Shown here piece after piece: positions 40,915 through 49,566 of a stretch of DNA of 64,000 bases. Made by a program: the position numbers and the translations under genes. How positions within the stretch are numbered: the stretch's first letter is position 1; each line of letters starts with the position of its first letter. The notes beneath the pieces are model-generated. The model saw only the letters and a list, made by a program, of their open reading frames with translations, had not been told where the DNA came from and ran no database searches. The stretch comes from Meiothermus sp. (GTDB taxonomy: Bacteria; Deinococcota; Deinococci; Deinococcales; Thermaceae), in the NCBI RefSeq assembly GCF_026004115.1, contig NZ_BPIM01000001.1, forward strand, positions 1,302,001 to 1,366,000. Reading direction: 5' to 3'.

Positions 40915-41624
40915 GCCACACCTCCTACAGCCCGCTTGCGGTGAAGGTTGGGGCCATCGGACTCGATCTGCCCGTCGCGGATGCGCACGATGCGCCCGGT
41001 GTACTCGGCAATATCGGCCTCGTGGGTCACCACAATCACGCAGGTGCCCTCGTCGTTAAGCTCCTGAAAAAGCCGCATCACCTCGGCGGCGGTCTTGGAG
41101 TCGAGGTTGCCGGTCGGTTCGTCGGCCAGCAGGATGGAGGGGCGCATGGTCAGGGCCCGGGCCACCGCCACCCGCTGCTTCTGGCCCCCCGAAAGCTGCG
41201 AGGGCAGGTTTTTTAGCTTGTCCCCCAGCCCCACCTTTTGCAGCACCTCGAGGGCCCGTTCGCGCCGTTCTTCGGGGCCGTAACCCGCATAGATGAGCGG
41301 CACCTCCACGTTTTCCAGCACGTTCAGGCGCGGCAGCAGGTGAAAAGCCTGGAACACAAAGCCAATCTCCTGGTTGCGCATCTCGGCCCGCTGGTTTTCG
41401 CTCAGGGTGGTCACGTCCTGCCCGGCCAGGTGGTACTGCCCGCTGGTGGGCCGGTCGAGCAGGCCGATAATCTGCATCAGGGTGGTTTTGCCCGAGCCCG
41501 AAGGCCCCATCAGGGCCACCATCTCGCCCGAGCGAATCTCCAGCGAAACCCCCTTGAGCGCCTCGAACTCGAGCGCCCCACTCTTGTACACCTTGCGCAC
41601 CTGGTCTAGCGCGACCACCGTCAC
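40911..41624 (-). CDS. MacB-type ABC transporter ATPase (LolD/MacB family)
   Basis: A 237-aa ATP-binding subunit. Walker A is [20 protein letters not shown], the Q-loop FVFQAFHLL, the signature [15 protein letters not shown], Walker [14 protein letters not shown], and the H-loop [13 protein letters not shown]. It powers the permease encoded directly downstream. Its start overlaps the stop of the adaptor gene by 4 bp. Confidence 0.94.
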
Positions 41625-42970
41625 CGGCCACCTCCTGGCGGGGCGCCCAGGGGCAGGCGCAGGCCGCCCTGCCCGCCCTGGTTGTTCGAGGCCGGCTGCA
41701 CCCGGCTGGGCAGCACCACGGTCTGGCGGGGCTGCAAGCCTTCCAGCACCACCTGGTTGACCCCGTCGTCCGGCCCCAGCACCACCCGCACGGTCTCCTT
41801 GTTGCCGTCGGGCATGAGCACATCCACATAGGCCCGGTTGCGCACGGTCTGCACGGCCCGCTTGGGGATGGTCAGGGCGTCCTGGATTTCCTCGATGATA
41901 ATCTCGCCCTCGGCGCTCATGCCGGGCCGCAGCTTGCGCTGGGGGTTGGGGATGTTCACGGTTACGTAGAAAAAGGCGATGTTCTGCTGAATCTGGGCCT
42001 TGGGAGCAATGGCGGTAACTTTGCCTTCAAAGGTTTCCCCACTGAAGGCGTCCAGCGTTACCTCGACCCGCTGGCCCACCCGCACCTTGGCAATCTCGCT
42101 CTCGTCAATCTGCACTGGCAGGTTCACGCTGGAATCGTCGATCAGGGTGAGCAGGGCAGTGCTGTTGCTGACCGTGGCCCCCACCCCGATGCTGCCCACC
42201 TGGGCGTTGACTTCGGCCACCACGCCATCGAAGGGGGCGTAGATTTTGGTGTTGGCCAGATTTTCTTCGGCGTTTTTGACCTCGAGCCGGGCCTGCTCTA
42301 CGGCAATCTGGGCGTTGCGCAGGTCCTGGGTGTTGGCGCTATTCCGCAGCGAGAGGGCCTGGCGGGCGGTGTTCAGGTTGACCTGGGCCACCTCGAGGGC
42401 TGCCTGGGCCTTGGCGTAGGCGTCGCGGGCGCTTTGCAGGCTCTGGGCGCTGGCGCCCCCCAGATCGAAGAGCTTCTGGGTGGCCTGCAGGTTGGTGCGG
42501 GCGGCCTCGAGGTCGCGCCGGGCGTTGGCATAGGCCACCTCGGCGCTGGCGATGTTTTGCCGGTTGGCGGCCTGGGTGCTGGCCTGGTCGGCCCGCAGCT
42601 TGTCCAGGTTGGCCTGGGCCTTTTGCAGGGTCAGCCGGGCGTTTTCCAGGGCGCGGGTGTAGTTGGTGGGGTCGAGCTGCACAATAAGCTGCCCCCGCTG
42701 CACCCGGTCGCCCACGGTGGGCAGCCTGAGCACGGTGCCGTTGACTGCCGGTTTGACCGCCAGGGTCTGGACGGCCTCGAGGGTGCCCGGCCCCGAGACC
42801 GAGACCCGAAACACCCCTTGCTGCACAGGCGCAGTCTCCACCGCGGGGGTGTTGCTGGCGGTGGGCTTGGGTCGCAGGAACCAGTAGGCCGCGCCCCCCA
42901 GCCCGGCCAAGACCAGGGCCACAACCAGCCAAAGCCAGGGTACGCGGGTACGAGTACGGGAGCCAGTCAT
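41621..42970 (-). CDS. MacA-type periplasmic adaptor (HlyD family)
   Basis: A 449-aa membrane-fusion protein. A single N-terminal membrane helix (WLWLVVALVLAGLGGAAYWF) is followed by a biotinyl-lipoyl-like half (GTVLRLPTVGDRVQRGQLIV), a long coiled coil (about residues 110-250), the second lipoyl half (IYAPFDGVVAEVNAQVGS), and the beta-barrel and C-terminal domains. It links the inner-membrane ABC transporter to the outer-membrane TolC-like channel. The start at 42970 is chosen because GAGGGGTGA stands upstream and the membrane helix then lies near the N-terminus. The region before it carries the integron-like cassette that parts it from the TolC-like genes. Confidence 0.92.
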   Translation of the reverse strand: MTGSRTRTRVPWLWLVVALVLAGLGGAAYWFLRPKPTASNTPAVETAPVQQGVFRVSVSGPGTLEAVQTLAVKPAVNGTVLRLPTVGDRVQRGQLIVQLDPTNYTRALENARLTLQKAQANLDKLRADQASTQAANRQNIASAEVAYANARRDLEAARTNLQATQKLFDLGGASAQSLQSARDAYAKAQAALEVAQVNLNTARQALSLRNSANTQDLRNAQIAVEQARLEVKNAEENLANTKIYAPFDGVVAEVNAQVGSIGVGATVSNSTALLTLIDDSSVNLPVQIDESEIAKVRVGQRVEVTLDAFSGETFEGKVTAIAPKAQIQQNIAFFYVTVNIPNPQRKLRPGMSAEGEIIIEEIQDALTIPKRAVQTVRNRAYVDVLMPDGNKETVRVVLGPDDGVNQVVLEGLQPRQTVVLPSRVQPASNNQGGQGGLRLPLGAPPGGGR

Positions 42971-43259
42971 GTTCACCCCTCGATGTTCCTCTAGCATAGC
43001 CAATGTTCGGTGTATGGAATGCGAAGGTTTGATGAAGACGAACCCTGGGGCTTCACTGGCAGGGAATTGATGGCTAGTATTGAGAAAATAAAACATGTTC
43101 TGTGCAACAATCCAGGAATGTTTAGATGAAAGGCAACAGACATAGCTCCAGAAAGGAGGCGGTTTTGGGTGGTGATGGTTGGCTATTTGTTGAGGTAGGC
43201 GGGTTATATAAAAATCCTGGTATAGGGTGTTAGACAGCAGGGTGTTATTTAATCGCTAG
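42971..43259. other. Spacer between macA-type gene and cassette
   Basis: No gene is visible. There is a short AT-rich stretch (TTATATAAAAATCC at about 43204-43217). The segment ends at the GTT where the cassette begins. Confidence 0.5.
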
Positions 43260-44037
43260 TTGGGCGCTGAAATACCTATCATCACAGAGAACAGGAGATG
43301 AATAAGAAACAAAAGATTGCAACTTTCGTGGGGTTGTTCGTTGCATTGGGATTGCCGTTTGTTCTGGATTTGCTTTTGGGTATACGCCCTGAAGATATGG
43401 CTATTCCTTCGCGAGTCATTCTCTTTGTTACAGAAGAATGGACTCTCGCTTTTGTCCTGTTGGGGATTGTTCTTCTTTGGGAAAGGCAATCGCTGGCATC
43501 AATTGGCATCAAGAAGGTATCCTGGCGTGATTTGCTTTGGGGAGTGCTGGGGTTCATCGTTGGCGCATTTTCTTTTATCCTGACCATGCCCCTTGTCAAT
43601 GCACTGGGCTTGGGCACGACGTCGAGTGGCATTTCACAATTAGCGCAAATTCCGATTGTGCTGCGAATAGGGATTGTCCTCACGGCAGGTATTACGGAAG
43701 AAATATTGTTTCGTGGTTATCCCATTGAGCGTATAAACGCTCTAACAGGCAGACTTGGCTTAAGCGCATTCATCGCTTATGTGGTATTCGTCTTGCTTCA
43801 CATACCCTTCTGGGGGCTCGGCGGCACAATCCAGATTGGGGTGTGGAGCATTGTGATCACGATTCTCTACGTCAAACGGAGAAACCTCCTTGCTTGTATG
43901 CTGATGCACATCTTGAACGATGCCTACGCTTTTATTCTCTTGCCGTTGTTCGCTCAATATCTACCTTAATCAGGAACATAGCCGCCCAACCCGCCGCTTC
44001 AGCCGACACGCTCCGCGTGCGGCTGAGCGGCAGGCCG
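43260..44037 (+). mobile_element. Integron-type gene cassette carrying a CPBP protease gene
   Basis: A 778-bp AT-richer segment interrupts the efflux locus. It begins within GTTGGGC (43259-43265), the core-site form GTTRRRY, has a single gene read from the left, and ends in a 60-bp attC-like site up to the G of GTTAGGG (44037). Joining its own ends would recreate a complete attC whose outer arms GCCCAAC and GTTGGGC are perfect complements. Removing it leaves GTTAGGGCGC. No integrase gene is in the window. Confidence 0.75.
43298..43969 (+). CDS. CPBP-family intramembrane metalloprotease
   Basis: A 223-aa membrane protein with about seven helices and the CPBP (Abi/CAAX-prenyl-protease-like) motifs: ITEEILFRGYPIERI, then VLLHIPFW and MLMHILNDAYAFI for the metal-binding histidines. 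Members act as peptide-processing or self-immunity proteins for bacteriocins. CAGGAG lies directly before the ATG. GC content is visibly lower than that of the flanking genes and its strand is opposite to them, as expected for an inserted cassette. Confidence 0.88.
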   Translation: MNKKQKIATFVGLFVALGLPFVLDLLLGIRPEDMAIPSRVILFVTEEWTLAFVLLGIVLLWERQSLASIGIKKVSWRDLLWGVLGFIVGAFSFILTMPLVNALGLGTTSSGISQLAQIPIVLRIGIVLTAGITEEILFRGYPIERINALTGRLGLSAFIAYVVFVLLHIPFWGLGGTIQIGVWSIVITILYVKRRNLLACMLMHILNDAYAFILLPLFAQYLP

Positions 44038-44043
44038 TTAGGG
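43984..44043 (+). other. attC site (59-base-element-like)
   Basis: The 60 bp begin with GCCCAAC (RYYYAAC), end with GTTAGGG (one mismatch to GTTRRRY), and between them have a long imperfect stem: CTTCAGCCGACACGC against GCGTGCGGCTGAG, with single unpaired bases on the left arm. Extrahelical bases, length and the inner CAGCCGAC motif are hallmarks of integron attC sites. Confidence 0.75.
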
Positions 44044-44317
44044 CGCTACCCCACTCGCTTCAAGCATGGCCCGTGCGGGCGCCGGGCGGCATCGCTCGAA
44101 AAAGTAGAAGGTAGTGGAGGTCGGGCTGGCCGAGGGAGGGTGCAGTCGAGTTGCTCCGCAAAAACTAGCCAGCCGAACCCCAGCCAGTACCAGCACAATC
44201 ATCCGTGCCCACAGAAAAGCTCCCTCCCTGCCAGTGCCGCGGGTTCTACCCTCACTTTAGCCCCGGCCCCGAAATGGATGGCGCCAGGGGTAAATACAGC
44301 CCAAATCGCATGGATGA
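44044..44317. other. Spacer between cassette and TolC-like genes
   Basis: No supported gene. A 54-codon frame exists on the minus strand but lacks a ribosome site and has unusual codon use. With 42971-43259 it would form one continuous spacer if the cassette were absent. Confidence 0.5.
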
Positions 44318-45391
44318 CTATGGCCCACTGGCCGCCCGCACCAGGCCGGTAAAGTCCTGGCCTGCTGCCACCGAGAAAGCCGCCAGGGCTTTCCAGTAGG
44401 TGTTTTGCGCCTGAATCAGGGCATACTCGGCGCTGCGCAGCGAGACCTGGTCGGTTTGTAGTTGTAAAGCCGAGATGGTGCCGGCCCGCAGGGCGGCCTG
44501 GCTCTGCTCCACCACCCGCTGGGCGTTGGCGACGTTGGCCTGGGCTAAAGCGATGCTGCGGTAGGCGTTCTGGGCGGCCTGGTGGGTGTTGGTTAGGTTG
44601 GTCTGAGCATTCTGTTGGGCGGTTTGCAGGGTGCGCTGGTTGTTCTCCAGGCTGGTTTTGGCTGTGTTGAGCTGGACGGCGGGGGTGTAGTCGTTATCGG
44701 CCAGCTTGACGTTCAGTTCGGCAAGTTCTACGGCCTGCTGGGCTTGCAGCACGCTGGGCAGCCGACTAAAGAGGTCGCGGCTCAGGGCCTGGAGGTCGGC
44801 TTGCAGCACCGGAGGGGCCGGAGGAGCGGCCACCATGACGTTGCCCAGGTCGCTCAGGCCCAGCAGCGCGGCAAGCTGGGCGGCCAGCACCGGGAGCTGG
44901 GACTGGGCGTTGGTGAGGGACTGCCTCGAGCTATCCAGGGTGGTCTGGGCCCGGGCTACGTCCAGGGCGGTGGCGTTGCCGGCGGCCTGGCGGGCCTTGG
45001 CCACCTCCAGATTGCGCTGGTTCAGGGCTACCTGGGCCTGGAACAAGGCCACGTTTTGCTGGGCTTCGTAGAGGCTTACGTAGGCGTTCACCACGCTCTG
45101 CATGACCGAAAGCCGGGTGGCCTCGAGGTTCACCTCGGCCAGCTTTGCGCTCTGCTCGGCCTGGGTGCGGGCCACCACCAGGGTGCTGGGGTCGGCCTTG
45201 AGCGCATTGAGCTGCAGGGTGGCGTTTTGCAGGGTGGCCTGGGCGCTTTGCAGCGAGGGGCCCCGGCTGTAGGCCTGCGATAGGGCCTGGGGCAGGGTGA
45301 GGGTGTTCTGGGCTAACCCCAGGGAGCAAACCGGCAGCAGCGCCAGCAAAAGCAAGGGCTTCGACAGAAGGTTCGAGACACGGTGCGTCAT
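44318..45391 (-). CDS. TolC-like outer-membrane efflux protein 2
   Basis: A 357-aa protein with a signal peptide (LLLLALLPVCSLGLAQ) and two OEP-type helical repeats (TLPQALSQAYSRGPSLQSAQ; LEVAKARQAAGNATALDVARA; AALRAGTISALQLQTDQVSL). It is shorter than typical TolC proteins (430-490 aa). The start overlaps the stop of the other TolC-like gene, so the pair is translated together. Two unequal TolC-type subunits in one operon are unusual. Confidence 0.88.
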   Translation of the reverse strand: MTHRVSNLLSKPLLLLALLPVCSLGLAQNTLTLPQALSQAYSRGPSLQSAQATLQNATLQLNALKADPSTLVVARTQAEQSAKLAEVNLEATRLSVMQSVVNAYVSLYEAQQNVALFQAQVALNQRNLEVAKARQAAGNATALDVARAQTTLDSSRQSLTNAQSQLPVLAAQLAALLGLSDLGNVMVAAPPAPPVLQADLQALSRDLFSRLPSVLQAQQAVELAELNVKLADNDYTPAVQLNTAKTSLENNQRTLQTAQQNAQTNLTNTHQAAQNAYRSIALAQANVANAQRVVEQSQAALRAGTISALQLQTDQVSLRSAEYALIQAQNTYWKALAAFSVAAGQDFTGLVRAASGP

Positions 45392-46935: not shown

Positions 46936-49566
46936 CTATCTGAGCGTGAAGGAGTAGTAGGTGCACCTGCCTGCCCACACCGTGATGGGCCCCTTGCTGC
47001 GGCTGGGGTCGGGGGCGTTGACCTTGACAGTTACGCGGCAGTTGTCGGTGCCGAGCCCTTCGTTGTGGACGTTGTAGAGATCAAAGACGTTGCGGGTGGA
47101 GCCGGTATCGGCGAGAAGGACGTTATCAAACCCCGGGCCGCTTACGTAGAGCTTCCAGTCGTAGGTGAGGGCTTCGTTGCTGGGGTTCTCTACGCTGATC
47201 CCCCCGTAGTAGCGGGTGGGGGTAGGCCCGATGACAAGGGTGCAACCCTTTTCGCTCAGGACGATGGTGCTGCCGCCGGCTACCTTTACGCTCCCGCAGA
47301 AGCGGAACTGCCCACCGGTGAACTCCCTCGAGTACACCCCATAATCGGTGATCTTGGGGTAGGGGTTGGGGGGTGGGGGCAGCACGTTCAGGTTGAGGGT
47401 CTGGGTAGCGGTGGCCCCGTCGCTATCTTGGGTGGTCACGCGCACCTGGCGGAGTCCGGTAGCCCCAAAGGTGACCGAGACCGAGCAGCCCGTACCTGCC
47501 GAAAGCGTATCGGGCGCATCCACTGACCAGGTGGTGGTACCGCATAGCTTGTTGGTGTCGGGTTCGTTGGGGTCGGTAATGAGCGCGGTGATGGGGTAGG
47601 CCTCGCCCTGGTGGGGGTCTCCCCCGTATTGCAGGTTCAGGGTGGGCGGGGTGTTGATTACGTTGACCACGAAGCTGCTGCTGGCCTGGCTGCTGCCATA
47701 TTTGGCCAGCAAGGTTATAGTCCGGGAACCCACCGAGTTCAGAGTGCGCTTGAGTTCGGGGCCGAACAGGCTGTTGGAATCGGTGCTCCAGCCGCCATTG
47801 TAGAGGGTGCCGTCCAGATTTGAGGTCACGCTCAGGTTGACGCTCTTGGCCACAGGGTGGGTGATCTGGAAGAACTGGGCCAGGTTGGTCTCGACCCGGA
47901 GCTGTACGGTAGCGGGGTTGGTTTTGATGGTGATCTTGGGCGCTTCCGAGCCGCCCGGCGCGGCCTGCTCCTGCTTCCAGGCCTCGCTGCGGCGGCCATC
48001 GAAGTTCAGCACGCTCAGGGAATTGAAGATGCCGCTGACATAGTCGGCGGGGACGTAGTAAAAGCCGCGGTCGCCCGCGCCGCAGCCCCAGGAGTTCTTG
48101 ACGATGAAATACCCACCCCCGCCGATGCTGGGGGTCTGGCCGAACTGGCTCATGTCTTCATTGGAGAGAAACCCCACGATCTGCACGGCGTGGCCGCCGT
48201 AGGAGCCGGCTACCTCTTTGCCCTTATCGTCGAGCCTGGTCTTGGCGTAGTTGCTCACCACGCCGTCGTTTTTCACATCGTCCATGAAACCTTTGTAGAC
48301 CGGGAACGAAGCCAGGAGCACATAGCCTTGCGAGAGGTACTGGCGCAGGAGGTTGAGCTTGAAGGTCTCGCCGTTTTTCCAGACCTGGGTGGTCTTCGAG
48401 GAGGCCACGCCGGGCCCGCCAAAGGTTACCTTGGCGTAGCTACAAAAAGTGAAGATAAAGGTGGTGCAGACCCGGCGGCTCTGGTGGGCGGTATCCGAGC
48501 AGGTGCCACTGTAGCCGTTGCAGCTGTTGGCATACGAACTGCTGTCGCCATCTTTGACGCTGGGGCGTGAGGTGGCCCTGTTGTAGGTCCAGCCCCCCTC
48601 GCTGGGGAAGCTCTGGCCTTTATTGACCGCGGTCTCGAGGGCCTTCTCCGACCAGTAACCGTCGGTGTAGTCGCTGGAGTCCCAGTCCTGCTTGACCTTG
48701 TTGACCAGGAACTGCTCGGAGAGGTCTACGGGGTTGTTGTTTTGCACCCGCTCGCGGCTTTCCACCGCCCCGATCGCGGTGAAGGCCCAGCAGGTGCCGC
48801 GTTTGGCTTGGTTTTTGACCGGGCTGATGAAGTTTTTGAGGGGGAACCAGAAGCGCTTGGCCAGGTTGGTAGGGGTGCAGGGTCCGTTGTTGTCGGTGCC
48901 GTTGCCAGGGTTGATGGCTTGGGGTTGCACCCCGCCGCCGGGCTCGAGCCGGGCCGTGCGCAGGCTGGCAGGCTTGCTTCCCAACAGGCCATCGAGCTGC
49001 TCGAGGGCGGCTTTGACCTCGGCCAGCGGCTTTCCCTTGAGGCTATCGGGGCTGGGGGCCTGGGGTTTGAGGTCCTCGGGCAAGAGCGAGTAGCTCAGGG
49101 CATAATCGTCCAGGGCGTTGTCCACGCTTTGCGCGCGCTGGTAGGTCTCGACGGCGTTGCGCAGCTGGGTGCCCAGGCCAAACAGCACCACCGGCTCCCC
49201 CCCCGGCCCGCTCACCGGGCGGTCGCCCTCGAAGCTGGGGCTACCCGCAGCCTCGGCGAGCAGGGCTTGGGTGTTGGGGTCTTTGTCCGGGATGCCGTTT
49301 AGAAAGCTCTTATCGCTTTGGTATTGGGCTTCTCGAGCCTGTTTGGCTGCGGCGACTGCGGCGGTGCTGGAAAGCACCAGCTCGCCCGAGGCAATACCTT
49401 TCTGGAACTCCTCGGGGCTGACCATCTGGGCGTCAGCCGGGATACCCTCTTTCCAGGCGTTGGCCTCGGTGAACAGATCGGGATCGGTTTTGCTCCCGCC
49501 GACCGAGCACGCTGCCAATGCGACGAGCAAAAAGCCGGTGATGCCTAACCACTGCAATATTTTCAT
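46936..49566 (-). CDS. Papain-like (C1 family) cysteine protease lipoprotein
   Basis: An 876-aa protein with a lipoprotein signal (GFLLVALAACS, Cys at residue 20). A pro-region of about 220 residues precedes the peptidase domain, which has catalytic Cys in GTCWAFTAIG (about residue 258), His in YGGHAVQIVGF (about 460) and Asn in VKNSWGCGAGDRGF (about 490). Ig-like or PKD-like beta domains follow (INTPPTLNLQYGGDPHQGE) and a beta-rich end. It probably works on the cell surface. GGAGGAACTAAG precedes the ATG, 1 bp after the zinc-ribbon gene. It is the last gene of the first protease operon. Confidence 0.9.
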   Translation of the reverse strand: MKILQWLGITGFLLVALAACSVGGSKTDPDLFTEANAWKEGIPADAQMVSPEEFQKGIASGELVLSSTAAVAAAKQAREAQYQSDKSFLNGIPDKDPNTQALLAEAAGSPSFEGDRPVSGPGGEPVVLFGLGTQLRNAVETYQRAQSVDNALDDYALSYSLLPEDLKPQAPSPDSLKGKPLAEVKAALEQLDGLLGSKPASLRTARLEPGGGVQPQAINPGNGTDNNGPCTPTNLAKRFWFPLKNFISPVKNQAKRGTCWAFTAIGAVESRERVQNNNPVDLSEQFLVNKVKQDWDSSDYTDGYWSEKALETAVNKGQSFPSEGGWTYNRATSRPSVKDGDSSSYANSCNGYSGTCSDTAHQSRRVCTTFIFTFCSYAKVTFGGPGVASSKTTQVWKNGETFKLNLLRQYLSQGYVLLASFPVYKGFMDDVKNDGVVSNYAKTRLDDKGKEVAGSYGGHAVQIVGFLSNEDMSQFGQTPSIGGGGYFIVKNSWGCGAGDRGFYYVPADYVSGIFNSLSVLNFDGRRSEAWKQEQAAPGGSEAPKITIKTNPATVQLRVETNLAQFFQITHPVAKSVNLSVTSNLDGTLYNGGWSTDSNSLFGPELKRTLNSVGSRTITLLAKYGSSQASSSFVVNVINTPPTLNLQYGGDPHQGEAYPITALITDPNEPDTNKLCGTTTWSVDAPDTLSAGTGCSVSVTFGATGLRQVRVTTQDSDGATATQTLNLNVLPPPPNPYPKITDYGVYSREFTGGQFRFCGSVKVAGGSTIVLSEKGCTLVIGPTPTRYYGGISVENPSNEALTYDWKLYVSGPGFDNVLLADTGSTRNVFDLYNVHNEGLGTDNCRVTVKVNAPDPSRSKGPITVWAGRCTYYSFTLR

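Follow-up and report, generated by a model that had tools for sequence, protein, structure and literature searches.

A one-cassette integron-like locus with a decayed integrase gene trace in a Meiothermus genome

Integrons are among the main natural means by which bacteria capture genes. Sedentary chromosomal integrons, as they occur in Vibrio, Xanthomonas and Anaerolineales, are built from the same parts as the Meiothermus locus described here, namely an attI site, cassettes, attC sites, a G^TT crossover and a TIGR02249 IntI encoded in the genome; in our case, however, the local intI gene is decayed, one cassette takes the place of an array and several loci are found per genome. Similarity also exists to class 1 integrons (IntI1), with a Meiothermus IntI that is about 55% identical and an attC site of the short type like that of aadA, whereas the attI site, the host phylum and the cargo are different. 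CALIN or lone attC sites in the terms of IntegronFinder, as laid out in the text of PMC9024848, likewise consist of an attC cassette without neighbouring integrase, but our locus has kept an attI site and a trace of intI. According to the same text, the current default for a CALIN is at least two attC sites and therefore a locus of this kind would be missed by the program. Insertion at secondary attG sites (Loot et al. 2024, as cited in PMC11023631) also places a single cassette at a G^TT outside an active integron, but the target analyzed here is an attI site by profile match.

The cassette, its attC site and its cargo

The stretch of DNA under study, called the window, comprises 64,000 nucleotides of a Meiothermus sp. 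contig (NZ_BPIM01000001.1, positions 1,302,001 to 1,366,000). The locus contains the following features in window coordinates:

41621..42976, minus strand, macA-like gene, left neighbour; start set at MTGSRT, near 42976; conserved in nearly all members of the genus
43040..43211, minus strand, decayed trace of the 5' end of intI with a PKT-x-x-FL segment (43150-43171); breaks off before macA
43212..43265, minus strand, attI site (profile R3); GTT at 43259-43261 shared with the cassette edge
43260..44037, plus strand, gene cassette from crossover to crossover; 778 bp; G^TT at both ends; 7/7 closure
43298..43969, plus strand, CPBP (Rce1-like) intramembrane protease gene; 223 aa; AGGAGAT ribosome-binding site; catalytic motifs intact
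43984..44043, plus strand, attC site; R'' GCCCAAC at 43984-43990, hairpin, R' GTTAGGG at 44037-44043
44038..44317, no strand, right flank between the last attC and the end of tolC; 96% to the sister species G003 by blastn, absent in G017
44318..45391, minus strand, tolC-like gene, right neighbour; conserved across the genus

A first-pass annotation made from the sequence of the window had described a CPBP protease gene on an AT-richer segment of 778 bp, recombination between G and TT and perfect outer arms on joining the ends, and all of these points held up. The left edge of the cassette is G43259^T43260, with the crossover G at 43259 (CGCTAG^TTGGGCGC), and the right edge is G44037^T44038, with the crossover G at 44037 (GGCCG^TTAGGGCGC). 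Joining both ends gives GCCCAAC/GTTGGGC with 7/7 matches, and the left edge thus complements R'' of the cassette's own attC. The GC content of the cassette is 0.49 in comparison to 0.62 for the window. The encoded protein belongs to the CAAX/CPBP proteases (Pfam PF02517, E=1.1e-16) and the motifs EEILFR, FVLLH and HILND at residues 134, 164 and 204 follow the pattern EExxxR, FxxxH and HxxxN/D. The usual role of the family is intramembrane proteolysis of a membrane or exported protein. PADLOC did not match the CPBP protein to any defence system, and a search of the cassette for a sigma-70 promoter found none, a result that counts against the explanation favoured below.

To score attC sites we used covariance models, as a simple Python scanner overlooked long attCs. 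Model R1 was built from eight attCs of class 1 integrons and three from Thermaceae (G007, G018, G003), with the window site held out. It matched 43984-44043 over the full length with 40.6 bits (E=1.2e-7 for 163 kb and 2.5e-6 for the whole genome), and in this way the 60-bp attC-like site of the first-pass annotation passed the model check proposed there. Folded as single-stranded DNA, the bottom strand of the site reaches -24.3 kcal/mol (z=-4.7), a value that was equalled by none of 200 shuffles. An Rfam scan of the locus gave no match.

Proteins of Anaerolineae share 62-73% identity with the CPBP protein. Closer relatives of the gene lie near attC-like sites in two cases (L003, L007), while the search for attC sites near the Anaerolineae relatives L002, L004-L006, L008 and L009 found nothing. 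More distant relatives with 34-36% identity (L011, L012, L013) are cassettes in attC arrays of Anaerolineales, and the genome of L012 encodes IntI. From these similarities it seems plausible that the gene came from a cassette pool of hot-spring Chloroflexota.

The cassette splits an efflux operon as annotated before: tolC is separated from macAB, and in G017 the genes are adjacent without any insert. Next to the efflux genes, an 876-aa secreted papain-like protease with repeat domains was noticed by eye (46936-49566, minus strand). In two other genomes (G005 and G014; L050 and L052) two genes lie in the spacer between macA and tolC, an unrelated one of the CPBP type and one for a small peptide with a GG motif, and neither attI nor attC matches were found in these spacers.

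The attI site, the intI trace and the same locus in related genomes

A conserved attI site lies upstream of intI, both at the intact gene of this genome and in further Meiothermus genomes. Profile R3, a sequence-only profile of eight intI-linked attI sites with the sites of the window and of G003 left out, matched window positions 43212-43265 in a genome-wide search with E=1.3e-9, ranked second after the attI beside the intact intI, and matched the orthologous site in G003 with E=3.5e-12. Smith-Waterman scores of the window site against four Meiothermus attI sites were 42-45, which was reached by none of 1000 dinucleotide shuffles, and the comparison with the attI of G018 gave a score of 27 (1/1000 dinucleotide shuffles).

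Next to this site, the first-pass annotation had seen no integrase nearby. This is correct for an intact gene, as no intact intI adjoins the cassette, but the cassette is bordered by attI and by a short 5' trace of intI at 43040-43211. The trace is collinear with the beginning of intI in those intI loci that were aligned; beyond attI, 20-22 bp match the intI start at the expected distance (about 92 nt versus 94 nt), and the conserved region upstream of macA stops near 43040. At the DNA level 1-17 of 1000 shuffles reached the match for four of five intI loci, and the match to G012 was not significant (177/1000). As the protein-level match of the same region was not significant, only DNA collinearity was used. 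The trace would be a weak signal by itself and becomes convincing only through its position. Taken together, the profile match of attI and the collinear trace argue for an integron from which the integrase gene has been lost, and we are highly confident that the window contains such an element between tolC and macA, consisting of attI, one CPBP cassette with its attC and the decayed 5' trace of intI.

The sister species G003 has both flanks in common with the window at 96% (blastn), including the intI trace and with just two single-base gaps. At the same GTT it carries a different cassette of 4.2 kb with a different attC, the same crossover points and 7/7 closure. This cassette (L046 918-5101, G003:C130) encodes a D12-class methyltransferase, a HerA-like ATPase and a protein of 446 aa that matches no Pfam family, and is possibly a candidate for a defence system. 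As the intI trace is common to both species, the local intI had been lost before the two species diverged, and the different cassettes at the same GTT therefore suggest that cassettes were exchanged after loss of the integrase in cis. As to the uninterrupted spacer proposed as a check in the first-pass annotation, tolC and macA are adjacent in G017, but there the integron is wholly absent, and a naturally empty attI at the macA-tolC locus was not found among the relatives. G013 contains a related decayed trace. Together with the lack of the integron in G017, this implies an early arrival of the element at the locus in part of the genus.

The integrase and rival explanations

An intact intI gene is located 1.2 Mb from the window in the same genome (G000:C1:141790-142794). 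The 335-aa protein scores 465 bits with TIGR02249, which is above the cut-off, shows the identity of about 55% to IntI1 given above, and its locus contains an attI site and two attCs, with 7/7 closure of the first cassette. An integrase encoded elsewhere, which had been suggested as the likely agent, is therefore present, and a genome search for intI and more attC sites, also suggested, yielded this locus and a further attC at C1:1024150-1024700. We assume that the cassette entered as a circle, through recombination of its bottom-strand attC hairpin with the G^TT in attI. After loss of the local intI the cassette may have been swapped by an integrase in trans, probably the IntI at C1:141790, and this distant IntI would then act on the attI of the window. 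IntI in trans would most simply account for the exchange after the loss, but homologous recombination with strains that have other cassettes at this position could also lead to the difference between the window and G003.

It is also conceivable that the locus is a dead relic, in which both cassettes stood in tandem in an ancestor with intact intI, each species lost one of them and nothing has been gained since. The equally decayed intI trace in both species and the single cassette left in each of them are in line with such a history. A precise loss at GTT, however, likewise needs an integrase, and closure is perfect and the attCs are intact in both species, so that we regard this scenario as unlikely.

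The first-pass annotation had favoured insertion at a secondary site of the attG type, that is a non-attI site, by an integrase encoded elsewhere. Such insertions are known (Loot et al. 2024, as cited in PMC11023631) and would agree with the lack of an intact integrase next to the cassette, but the target fits the profile of intI-linked attI sites, as does the orthologous G003 site at the E-values given above, and the intI trace lies at the expected distance from it. Hence this interpretation was given up as very improbable. The idea that a foreign, AT-rich gene stands beside an unrelated attC-like hairpin by chance can practically be dismissed: hairpins are common in intergenic DNA, but here attC and attI matches with genome-wide E-values of 2.5e-6 and 1.3e-9 occur together in correct geometry with 7/7 closure, and another cassette takes the same place in G003.

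Integrons across Meiothermus and Deinococcota

The integron between tolC and macA is not the only one in its genome (G000). Besides this locus and the intact one, at least two more decayed loci are present (C1:1024166 and C1:1256765). The former (L098 5150-5700, G000:C1:1024150-1024700) combines an intI pseudogene, a partial attI, a strong attC with 55.5 bits and a lipoprotein-like gene. The latter (L138 4766-4839, G000:C1:1256765-1256838) shows a decayed attI and an intI-like start, and the attC search at this locus found none. An intI gene with an internal deletion was further observed on a small replicon or contig (L048 6429-6794, G000:C3; L109, G003:C107), where it adjoins the end of an agmatinase gene as at the intact chromosomal intI locus. 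The product of the first cassette of the intact integron (L047 7139-9709, G000:C1:139138-141708) is a type I-like methyltransferase of 856 aa that includes a specificity-like domain, and a near-palindrome, ATCCGATATGTCGGAT, which is possibly a regulator site, lies between attI and intI of this integron (L047 9793-9815) and is lost in the window.

Among the 111 Deinococcota genomes searched, eight from three genera had an IntI match with E<=1e-50. We found at least 18 attI-attC pairs, 17 of which belong to Meiothermus and the remaining one to a sister genus (G018), and attC counts across genomes are lower bounds, as the search scored 150 candidates in each genome, from a total of about 3,000. 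The expected divergent orientation of attI and attC was present in 18/18 pairs. In 15 of them the attI edge and R'' agree at 7/7 positions, including rare sequences like GCATAAC and ATCTAAC, and over the four free positions of all 18 pairs 71/72 match in comparison to 46.7 on shuffling (0/20,000). At most of the 18 loci only fragments of intI are left. The view that cassettes are not usual in this lineage thus had to be abandoned, as Meiothermus genomes carry many loci with attI, cassette and attC.

A literature search gave no report of integrons in Meiothermus. Deinococcota is not included in the list of integron-bearing phyla in the text of PMC8618304, and the text of PMC9024848 (IntegronFinder 2.0) and of PMC9668308 does not name this phylum. 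While IntI, attI, attC and cassettes are already known as parts of integrons, the scattered arrangement of one-cassette loci and their occurrence in this phylum appear to be new, as judged from the text of these articles. The unusual feature is the combination of scattered one-cassette loci bearing attI with dead local integrases. It is tempting to regard Meiothermus as the host of a dispersed integron, in which one intact IntI acts in trans on all of the scattered attI platforms, each with a dead local integrase and mostly with one cassette, but we put this forward tentatively, at slightly less than an even chance.

A thermophilic genus with many one-cassette integrons raises the question whether one IntI serves several orphan attI sites, and Meiothermus is also a source of IntI proteins from thermophiles. 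Loci like that of the window are overlooked by the usual two-attC rule. If the dispersed organization holds true, cassettes would move among several chromosomal loci, and Deinococcota would possess an integron system with an architecture that is absent from the text of the surveys.
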